Shown here in pieces: positions 12,037 through 31,677 of a stretch of 32,926 bases of DNA. Below the pieces are notes generated by a model. It was not told where the DNA came from and did not search any database. It saw nothing but the letters and a program-made list of their open reading frames with translations. The position numbers were made by a program, and so were the translations under genes. Source of the stretch: Geminicoccaceae bacterium (GTDB lineage Bacteria; Pseudomonadota; Alphaproteobacteria; Geminicoccales; Geminicoccaceae); the NCBI GenBank assembly GCA_020445645.1, contig JAGRGG010000003.1, positions 1 to 32,926 on the forward strand, read 5' to 3'. Positions within the stretch are counted from its first letter, which is position 1. The number at the start of each line of letters is the position of its first letter.

Positions 12037-13467
12037 ATGCGGCTAAAAACGCTTGGGCTGGCCCTATTCATGATTGCGTGCCTCTTCCAGGGGGCCGCGC
12101 ACGCGGCGTCGAAGCCGCACTTCGTGATCGTCATGACCGACGACCAGTCGTTCCGCGAGTTCGACCGCACCATCATGCCCAAGACGTTCCGCGCGATCGC
12201 CGACAAGGGGGCGATGCTCACGAACGCGTGGTTCAACGTGGCCCTGTGCTGCCCGGCGCGGGCGAACTTCCTGACGGGCAAGTACGCGCAGAACACCGGC
12301 GTGTCCGCGAACAGCTACGCGCAGTTCCTGGCCGGCGGCAACGAGCCGCAGACCTTCGCCGCCGTGCTCGCCAAGGCCGGCTACGTCAACATCATGTCCG
12401 GCAAGCACCTGAACGGCTACAACGGCTACCTCAACGGGCGCTTCCACCTCCCGGAAGGGTGGACCTACTGGACGGCCCGCGTCGGCGGCGCGAACATCTA
12501 CACCGACTCGACCGTCATCAACGAAGCCGGCAAGAGGACCAAGGTCCAGGAATACACGACCGACTACTACTTCGATCAGGCGGTCATCGACGTCGCCGCC
12601 GCGCTTCGGACGGGCCAGCCCACCCTCACCTTCGTCAACGTGAGCGCCCCGCACACGCCCTACATACCCCCGGCCAGGTACAAGGGTGCCTGCAACAACG
12701 TGCCGCTCCCCAGGATCCCGTCCTACAACCACAAGGACCCGCTCAAGCCGGCCTACACCGTGATCGGCAAGTTCAACCAGACGTTCGAGGCGAAGCTCAA
12801 CCAGAGCCGCCGCGACCGCATCTGCTCGCTCCGGTCGGTCGACGACGGCGTCGAGAAGCTGGTGCAGGCCTACGAACAGGCCGGGCAGGGCAACAACACC
12901 TACTTCATCTTCATGTCCGACAACGGCATGCTGATGGGCGAGCACGGCCTCACCAACTCGAAGGGGTCGCCGCACCAGGAATCGCTGCGCATGTTCCTCG
13001 CCATCCGCGGGCCGGGGATCAGGCCGCGGAGCGAGATCGGGCAGCTGATAGGCATCGCCGACCTCGCGCCGACGATGTACGAGCTCGCCGGCGTCGCCAC
13101 CCCGGCCTGGGTCGACGGCCGCTCGATCGTGTCGGTGTGGGGCCCGAAGCCGCCCTCGGCGGCGGCGTGGCGCAAGGTGCTCCCCGGCCAGCTGATAACC
13201 TCGGGCTCGACCCCCCGGATCCCGTCCTGGCGGGGCGTCGTCACGGCCAAGGGCCAGACCTACGCCGAGTATGCGGGGCTCAAGGGCAAGGGCGTGTGGC
13301 AGGAGTTCTACGACCGCAACCTCGACGCCTACGAGTTGAGCAACCGGGCCAACCGCCAGCCCAGCTGGCTGCTGACGCGCTTTGCCTATCTCACCAAGCA
13401 GCTCAACACCTGCGCCGGCGCCACCTGCCGGGAGCGTGAGCAGTCCTACGTGCCCGCTTCCCGCTAG
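12037..13467 (+). CDS. Secreted sulfatase, N-acetylglucosamine-6-sulfatase-like
   Basis: Formylglycine-dependent sulfatase of 476 residues, exported to the periplasm. It starts with a signal peptide (hydrophobic 5-18, likely cut after AHA at about 23). The metal site starts with VMTDDQS. The sulfatase signature ALCCPARANFLTG puts the cysteine to be converted to formylglycine at Cys71. MSGKHLNGY, SAPHTPY, SVDDGVEKLV and MSDNGMLMGEHGL...KGSPHQESLRM follow in family order. These stretches resemble animal glucosamine-6-sulfatase, so a sulfated amino sugar is a reasonable substrate guess. The ATG at 12037 has an excellent TGGAGGTGA ribosome site; an upstream in-frame extension would bury the signal peptide. 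No formylglycine-generating enzyme is seen in the window. The next gene, a surface lipoprotein, is co-directional. Confidence 0.92.
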   Translation: MRLKTLGLALFMIACLFQGAAHAASKPHFVIVMTDDQSFREFDRTIMPKTFRAIADKGAMLTNAWFNVALCCPARANFLTGKYAQNTGVSANSYAQFLAGGNEPQTFAAVLAKAGYVNIMSGKHLNGYNGYLNGRFHLPEGWTYWTARVGGANIYTDSTVINEAGKRTKVQEYTTDYYFDQAVIDVAAALRTGQPTLTFVNVSAPHTPYIPPARYKGACNNVPLPRIPSYNHKDPLKPAYTVIGKFNQTFEAKLNQSRRDRICSLRSVDDGVEKLVQAYEQAGQGNNTYFIFMSDNGMLMGEHGLTNSKGSPHQESLRMFLAIRGPGIRPRSEIGQLIGIADLAPTMYELAGVATPAWVDGRSIVSVWGPKPPSAAAWRKVLPGQLITSGSTPRIPSWRGVVTAKGQTYAEYAGLKGKGVWQEFYDRNLDAYELSNRANRQPSWLLTRFAYLTKQLNTCAGATCREREQSYVPASR

Positions 13468-13521: not shown

Positions 13522-13581
13522 CCGAAGCCGGCGGACCGGTTCACACCGCGTTACGGATGTCAACTTTCTAGGTGGAAGCCC

Positions 13582-14538
13582 ATGTCGTTTCGGTTCGATC
13601 GCACGTGCCTGACCGTGTCGCTGCTCCTGCTCGCGTCGTGCAGCGGCGGGGGAAGCGGCGGCGGTGACGGGTCCGGCGCCGGCCCGACGCCGGGCGGGAC
13701 CACGACCACGGGCGGGACGACCACCACCGGGGGCGACACCACGACCACGGGCGGGGCGACCACGACGGGCGGTGTCACGACTACCGGAGGGACTACCACC
13801 GGCGGCACGACGACCGGGGGCGGCACGACGACCACCGGGGGCACCACGACCACCGGCGGCACGACGACCGGGGGCGGCCCGCAGATCGGAACGGCGACGT
13901 CCACGACGACGGGCGCCGCGACGACCGCCGCCGCCGTCGACGCGGGCGGCGTCGCCGTCGAGACCGGAAACGGGCTGCGCGTCGCAGCCAGCGCCCCGTT
14001 CGCCACGATCGAGAACAACGTCGACCAGTACGAGGCCGACGACGGCACGGTCTGGGCGTCGCGCAAGGGCCAGACGACGCTGGGGGCGAGGCTCGACTAC
14101 ACGGCGTTCGGCGTCTGGCGCGGCCTCCTGCCGGACGGGGGCACGACCGAGGCGGGCGCCTTCTTCACGGGCGAGCCCACCCCCCCGGCCGGCGTCCCGA
14201 CCACGGGCACGGCGGCCTACGCGGGCGGCGCCATGGCGGTGGAGGAGAGCGGCGGCGGCGAGGTGGTGGAGCCCTATTTCGGCACGTCGACGCTGACGGC
14301 GGACTTCGCCGCCGGCGCCGTGACCGGCGGCGCCGCCTTCGACGGCCTGGGCGTCGACTTCGGGACGATGGGCATCGAGGGCGCCGGGTTCGGCGGCACG
14401 GGCGCCACCTCCGATCGCGGCCACGGCGGCGCGGCCTCCGGCCGCTTCGCCGGCCCGAACGCGCAGGAGGCGGCGGGGACGTTCACCCTCTCCGGCCCCT
14501 CGCAGCTCCGCGGCTCGTTCGGCGCGGCGCGGCGGTAG
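13582..14538 (+). CDS. TbpB/fHbp-like surface lipoprotein with Thr-Gly linker
   Basis: Predicted outer-membrane lipoprotein of 318 residues. A lipoprotein signal peptide ends in the lipobox LASC, giving a lipidated Cys20. A flexible SGGGSGGGDGSG tether follows, then a Thr/Gly repeat linker (about 40-99) built from TTTGG and TTTTGG units. The C-terminal region (about 140-318) has the pattern of transferrin-binding-protein-like eight-stranded barrels: TAAYAGGAMAV, STLTADFAAGAVTG, SGRFAGPNAQEAAGTF and a final LRGSFGAAR. In known families such proteins are flipped to the surface by Slam and bind host or environmental ligands. Here surface display is inferred, no slam gene is seen, and the ligand is unknown. 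The ATG at 13582 has AGGTGGA upstream; the 21 extra in-frame codons lack signal-peptide character. The sulfatase lies 114 bp upstream. Confidence 0.75.
   Translation: MSFRFDRTCLTVSLLLLASCSGGGSGGGDGSGAGPTPGGTTTTGGTTTTGGDTTTTGGATTTGGVTTTGGTTTGGTTTGGGTTTTGGTTTTGGTTTGGGPQIGTATSTTTGAATTAAAVDAGGVAVETGNGLRVAASAPFATIENNVDQYEADDGTVWASRKGQTTLGARLDYTAFGVWRGLLPDGGTTEAGAFFTGEPTPPAGVPTTGTAAYAGGAMAVEESGGGEVVEPYFGTSTLTADFAAGAVTGGAAFDGLGVDFGTMGIEGAGFGGTGATSDRGHGGAASGRFAGPNAQEAAGTFTLSGPSQLRGSFGAARR
13699..13878 (+). repeat. Coding minisatellite for the Thr/Gly linker
   Basis: About twelve imperfect 12-, 15- and 18-bp units built on ACGACCACCGGCGGC, all keeping the reading frame of the lipoprotein gene. They differ mainly at third positions and in the number of Thr codons. 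Such arrays can change length by slippage or recombination without breaking the frame. Confidence 0.75.
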
Positions 14539-14577: not shown

Positions 14578-14683
14578 CGTGCCCCGGACTCGGATCTGGG
14601 GCCTACATGCTCAAACCCCCGAGCCGCTCGCAGGGACTTTCGTGGGGGCAGCAGCTAAGCCCCGGCTCCGAGTCCGGGGCACG
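14578..14683. repeat. REPIN-like pair of inverted REP units
   Basis: CGTGCCCCGGACTCGGA (14578-14594) and its exact reverse complement (14667-14683) face each other across 72 bp. Similarity continues imperfectly inward. Each unit can also fold on itself through GCCCC(GG)/(CC)GGGGC. Two palindromic units in inverted orientation between genes is the usual layout of mobile REP doublets. It lies between the convergent lipoprotein and nadE genes. Confidence 0.65.
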
Positions 14684-31279: not shown

Positions 31280-31677
31280 CGGGTTCGTTTCGTCCACGAC
31301 CGCCGCCCCATCGGCTTCGTTGAAGGGGCCTTCGCCGCCCGGCCCCGCCGAAACCCGAACGACCGCTTTCAGTATCGTTCTCGGGTTCGTTCGCGCAACG
31401 GACATGCCGCTTCGGCCACCGCTCGGGTTCGTTTCGTCGCAGCACCGCCGCCCGGCGGCGCGCTTGAGGCGTGGGCGTCGGTTCCCGGCACGCTCTTCTC
31501 GGGTTCGTTTCGTTGCGACGGTACCACCCCTCGGCCACCCCTCGGCCACCCCTCGGCCACCCCTCGGCCACCCCTCGGCCACCCCTGGGCGGTGTGCCCG
31601 AGGCGCGGGCGTCCGTTCCCGGAGCGGCCGTTCGTGCAGGCCGCCTTCCTCGGGTTCGTTTGGCCCCGGGTTCGTTT
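31280..31677 (+). repeat. Six direct copies of CGGGTTCGTT
   Basis: The 10-mer CGGGTTCGTT occurs at 31280, 31382, 31424, 31500, 31651 and 31667, always in the same direction; five copies extend by T. The wider consensus is YTCGGGTTCGTTTCG. Copies at 31280 and 31424 also share a downstream CCGCCGCC block. Spacing is irregular, from 16 to about 150 bp. Confidence 0.75.
31524..31589 (+). repeat. 11-bp tandem array, six units
   Basis: Six head-to-tail units of CCACCCCTCGG; the last reads CCACCCCTGGG. The 11-bp period is not a multiple of three, so the array keeps several frames open at once on both strands and encodes no stable protein. It sits inside the field of CGGGTTCGTT repeats. Confidence 0.85.

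Follow-up and report, generated by a model that had tools for sequence, protein, structure and literature searches.

The window, meaning the whole stretch of 32,926 nucleotides analysed here, is one entire contig of a Geminicoccaceae draft genome (3.78 Mb in 291 contigs). At positions 13582-14538 of its forward strand it carries an ORF with an ATG start which encodes a predicted stalked surface lipoprotein of 318 aa. The arrangement AGGTGG-N6-ATG, which places a putative ribosome-binding site before this start codon, occurs once in the window against 0.10 expected by chance. The features of the locus are:

13570..13575, forward strand: putative ribosome-binding site AGGTGG, 6 nt upstream of the ATG
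13582..14538, forward strand: coding sequence of the predicted stalked surface lipoprotein, 318 aa (ORF; match to slam_lipo, NF041636)
13582..13638, forward strand: signal peptide, residues 1-19, with the lipobox LLLLAS preceding Cys20 (by inspection)
13639..13641, forward strand: Cys20, predicted lipidation site, followed by Ser (sequence and alignment)
13642..13692, forward strand: Gly/Ser-rich tether, residues 21-37, SGGGSGGGDGSGAGPTP (sequence)
13693..13878, forward strand: Thr/Gly stalk, residues 38-99, TTTGG/TTTTGG repeats (composition, TRF, codon analysis and model)
13921..14067, forward strand: handle (pedestal) strands, residues ~114-162 (AlphaFold2 models; structure alignments that extend into the handle)
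14101..14532, forward strand: C-terminal TbpB-type barrel domain, residues ~174-317 (PF01298 match, model and PDB matches)

A sulfatase gene with an N-sulphoglucosamine sulphohydrolase-like C-terminus (12037-13467, forward strand) ends 114 nt upstream of the lipoprotein gene on the same strand, and the downstream neighbour, a NAD synthase gene, lies on the opposite strand. A promoter scan found no promoter. Directly 3' of the lipoprotein gene is an inverted repeat (14578-14683) with 34-nt arms that are 85% complementary and separated by 38 nt; it is possibly a terminator, and no second copy was present in the loci compared. At 31524-31590 the window also contains CCACCCCTCGG six times in tandem, the copies being 98% alike.

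The original prediction described a lipidated cysteine, a Gly/Ser tether and a stalk of roughly 60 Thr and Gly residues leading to a TbpB/fHbp-like barrel, and each of these elements is borne out. The lipobox (LLLLAS|C, residues 14-20, read by eye from the sequence) precedes a cysteine that is invariant in all eight full-length relatives aligned, and residues 21-37 form the tether between Cys20 and the stalk. The stalk itself spans 62 residues, with 35 Thr, 24 Gly and, as the remaining three, Asp, Ala and Val. Its densest 30-residue stretch consists entirely of Thr and Gly (30/30), whereas 2000 shuffled versions of the protein averaged 19.5 and never exceeded 25, and the best count per 30 residues in the 157 other window frames of at least 100 aa was 18. 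Residues 1-114 have pLDDT values below 50 and zero secondary structure in a full-length model using eight sequences, and the stalk is predicted on this basis to be unstructured.

The full-length lipoprotein has no match in Pfam, probably because of the low-complexity stalk; residues 140-318 match TbpB_B_D (PF01298) with 34.1 bits against a cut-off of 26. NCBIfam slam_lipo (NF041636) matches both the full-length protein (61.2 bits, E 1.4e-16) and the domain alone (64.1 bits, E 1.7e-17), below a curated cut-off of 80 that is not reached by any match in the 31 genomes of the family and the 385 of the class, Slam-adjacent genes included. Structure prediction had been proposed for residues 140-318; run on residues 94-318 together with 25 related domains, AlphaFold2 returned a handle and a barrel (pLDDT 90.7, pTM 0.88). 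The best PDB matches of this model in Foldseek were the TbpB C-lobe, NHBA and haemophilins, and a second structure aligner gave Z scores of 17.9 for the TbpB C-lobe (5kkx), 17.8 for NHBA (6cuj), 17.8 for a haemophore/haemophilin (6om5) and 17.2 for HpuA (5ee4), the identity in alignments with TbpB-type proteins being 15-27%. A profile built from 26 domain sequences retrieved, at E<=0.1, 49 different sequences from the PDB, with TbpB at the top (1.7e-26) and with LbpB, NHBA, haemophilin, HpuA and fHbp also found. Against a viral structure library there was no match at E<=0.001. The fold of a handle with a C-terminal barrel is thus held in common with TbpB, HpuA, fHbp, NHBA and the haemophilins. 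TbpB, HpuA and fHbp are surface lipoproteins (PMC7857515), as the window protein is predicted to be, whereas the haemophilins are mostly soluble. An assignment as TbpB proper was rejected, since that protein needs two handle-barrel lobes and the window protein has one in 318 aa; inspection of the window ORFs by eye showed no TbpA-type TonB-dependent partner receptor.

The window contains no Slam gene, and the lipoprotein gene stands alone. The genome has exactly one match to SlipAM (PF04575; ~70-72 bits, cut-off 22), on contig C206, in an intact 499-aa ORF with a SlipAM barrel and a sub-cut-off TPR_Slam match. Upstream of this ORF, on the same strand, come three cargo-type lipoprotein ORFs; the successive gaps are 338 nt, 239 nt and, between the third lipoprotein ORF and Slam, 82 nt. 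In a tree of 34 domains the window barrel is joined with C206a, which stands first in this cluster (support 96/90). Slam and slam_lipo occur together in the same five of the 31 family genomes (Fisher 5.9e-6), two of the five belonging to one genus. Within the 385 class genomes Slam is found in 43, slam_lipo at E<=1e-4 in 42 and both in 23 (p 2.6e-14), and a Slam match accompanies slam_lipo in 9 of 11 genomes at E<=1e-10 and in 7 of 7 at E<=1e-12. The remaining 19 of the 42 have a slam_lipo match and no Slam match, and many of these matches sit in long ORFs; G110, G224, G055 and G059 are examples, with slam_lipo-type domains in ORFs of ~900-980 aa. The single Slam beside three such lipoproteins, the placement of C206a as nearest relative and the co-occurrence across the family all favour the original view of the protein as Slam cargo.

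Fourteen slam_lipo domain matches at E<=1 lie on seven contigs of the window's genome. The cargo set used here comprises 13 genes or fragments, one of which, the C33 fragment, is recognised by its signal peptide and stalk alone. The neighbours of the other cargo genes include OpgC, DUF6675, Mrr and an acetyltransferase, and no common functional theme or receptor was found among the neighbours of the cargo genes. One two-barrel cargo gene (L027:4954-7017, reverse strand) extends across two reading frames and may be a pseudogene, an assembly error or a frameshift. Two further cargo genes are truncated by contig ends (L031:2-274, reverse strand, and L030:3247-3972, forward strand), in one case within the T/G array.

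T/G arrays, defined as 20-residue windows with at least 80% Thr or Gly, are present in 8 of the 13 members of this cargo set; the 10 cargo genes taken from four family relatives have none. The paralogue arrays range from 20 to 147 aa and occur at several sites. The two-barrel protein C206c (L024:10455-12974, forward strand) has them in its handle (~147 aa), in a hairpin of its first barrel (~76 aa) and at its C-terminus, positions which a pure stalk role leaves unexplained, so that 'stalk' may be too narrow a term. The TTTGGTTTGG coding pattern has 13 matches in the window's genome, all inside arrays of these lipoproteins, and is found in 3 of the 385 class genomes, the window's own among them. 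In the second of these, an alphaproteobacterium of another family, it encodes part of a PEP-CTERM-like protein with a T/G linker (L076:1386-1766, reverse strand) whose C-terminal end reads VPEPG...LARRRRRDR; in the third it lies close to the beginning of a contig, in a frame of 94 codons with no recognisable barrel.

The genus is represented by a single genome in the set analysed. No relative turned up when named genomes were scanned with the full-length protein, and a scan of the 385 class genomes at E<=1e-8 found only the window's genome and genome G069. Neither of two stalked G069 proteins has a T/G array (a count that omits a third, longer protein of that genome); both have Pro-Thr stalks instead (28/30 and 30/30). 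Stalks were also compared at eight further loci, of which L066 duplicates the family relative G013. By eye, PT-rich stalks are present in Sphingomonas sp. NFR04 (2 of 3 proteins), in an uncultured Sphingomonas and in isolate SPHING1, and no notable stalk was seen in cargo from Haemophilus sputorum, Parasphingorhabdus or Pelagibacterium. A cargo-type lipoprotein of Noviherbaspirillum humi (L072:2885-4426, forward strand) carries a third kind of stalk, about eight GTNTG units after a Gly tether.

The stalk DNA retains traces of how it arose. TRF reports periods of 15, 18, 21 and 36 nt with 67-80% matches; all are multiples of three, so the expectation that the repeats keep frame holds, though the units are degenerate. 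Between units, the agreement of synonymous codons is at chance level (the observed value is reached in 99 of 500 shuffles), and one exact 30-nt repeat at a lag of 54 nt is reached by 0 of 200 shuffles. Scrambled codons together with a single exact repeat make past in-frame duplication likely and fast, ongoing change of stalk length less so; the 30-nt repeat is likely to be an old in-frame duplication within an otherwise worn array. Fresher duplications are seen in the arrays of two paralogues, with an exact 95 nt at a lag of 54 nt in one and 46 nt at a lag of 24 nt in the other. Because the codons are scrambled to shuffle level while 59 of the 62 residues are Thr or Gly, the sequence suggests that the residue pattern has been kept while the codons drift. 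Gene conversion between paralogue arrays was considered and rejected, since for 20 of 21 pairs the longest common exact stretch falls within codon shuffles; only C67b and C33 depart from this, with 30 nt in common (0 of 40 shuffles).

The gene product is probably a surface lipoprotein that depends on Slam (type 11 secretion) and in which the stalk acts as a flexible spacer, the surface location, the dependence on Slam and the spacer role all being features that we infer. Slam recognises the C-terminal end of its cargo, which follows the Lol route with involvement of Skp (PMC9090332). By this route Sec would export the window lipoprotein, Cys20 would be lipidated and the Lol system would deliver the protein to the outer membrane. 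The one Slam translocon of the genome, whose gene lies elsewhere, would then recognise the C-terminal barrel and pass the unfolded chain, and the handle and barrel would fold on the cell surface. The tether and Thr/Gly stalk, ~80 residues in all, would form a flexible, hydrophilic and unstructured spacer that lifts the barrel off the membrane surface and allows the barrel loops to reach a ligand. None of the 10 cargo genes from family relatives, which have the same barrel, encodes a stalk, which indicates that the stalk is dispensable for the function of the family.

Whether the protein reaches the surface at all bears on this scheme. A lipoprotein held in the outer membrane facing the periplasm, with no Slam export, would be in keeping with the lack of a Slam gene near the window gene and with the 19 Slam-less genomes, but the nearest relative C206a is a Slam-adjacent gene and the closest matches (E<=1e-12) accompany Slam in all 7 genomes in which they occur, and we regard this arrangement as quite improbable. 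That the stalk is an artefact of assembly is harder still to credit: the draft has 291 contigs, the paralogues C33 and C288 end at contig ends and the stalk of a third has runs of N, yet the window stalk is in frame inside a 32.9-kb contig, is degenerate and has no near-identical units to confuse an assembler, and arrays recur in paralogues on other contigs.

Other explanations accept the array and differ over its purpose. Functionally neutral growth of low-complexity sequence, in which in-frame duplications are tolerated in an unstructured chain, would account for arrays of such varied length at several paralogue sites, for the exact repeats in the window and in two paralogues and for the family relatives that have no arrays; we think it unlikely, given that composition appears to have been kept despite shuffle-level codons and that other lineages carry Thr-rich stalks of PT or GTNTG units at the same place. 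The arrays might instead be O-glycosylated, with the threonines as acceptor sites, and form a mucin-like coat in place of a bare spacer. The abundance of Thr in the stalk fits this, as do arrays located away from the anchor (handle, barrel loop and C-terminus), and three genes of Wzy_C ligase type in the window's genome exceed the cut-off, one of them partially matching the O-linking transferase TfpM (E 1.5e-9). That match, however, reaches 37.4 bits where the cut-off is 600, and none of the three genes is clearly an O-linking transferase. The Wzy_C family also takes in ordinary O-antigen ligases and polymerases, and 9 of 14 control genomes have a match to it as well; a scan of six neighbouring proteins found no glycosylation gene among them. 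We regard glycosylation as an unlikely explanation. A broader proposal, which takes up the C206c arrays and which we advance with little confidence, is that T/G arrays are a modular surface element exportable by Slam at any site, with at least eight proteins forming a Thr-rich brush over the cell that is perhaps glycosylated and selected for its composition, not for an exact sequence. If true, the sites of insertion would be the gap between anchor and barrel, the handle, a barrel hairpin and the C-terminus of different cargo.

The stalk had been called unusual, and this stands for its Thr/Gly version and not for Thr-rich stalks as such, which are published with PT and PTD units (PMC12282271) and were found here with PT and GTNTG units. 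According to that study, predicted T11SS cargo of Sphingomonas has a Pro-Thr repeat stretch before TbpBBD barrels, and surface proteins of Psychrobacter, mostly lipidated, have PTD repeats in the same position. The Sphingomonas cargo resembles the window protein in being alphaproteobacterial, with N-terminal Thr-rich repeats followed by TbpBBD, and in part lipoproteins; it differs in having Pro-Thr units and multiple barrels where the window protein has TTTGG/TTTTGG units and one barrel. The Psychrobacter cargo likewise has a repeat stretch ahead of its TbpBBD barrel, but it is built of Pro-Thr-Asp units, has multiple barrels and comes from another class of Proteobacteria. Thr-rich repeat stalks on T11SS cargo are already known, and the Thr/Gly stalk is a variant of them. 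Within the terms of the literature search, Slam cargo with Thr/Gly stalks was not among the reports listed, and neither was the spread of such arrays over the paralogous set of one genome or their presence inside a barrel loop.

These results extend predicted Slam/T11SS cargo to the Geminicoccaceae, where a single translocon is accompanied by about a dozen cargo genes, the majority located on contigs other than its own. The same barrel without a stalk, or with a T/G, PT or GTNTG stalk, forms a natural comparison set for the function of Thr-rich spacers, and this set also bears on how much low-complexity chain Slam is able to pass.
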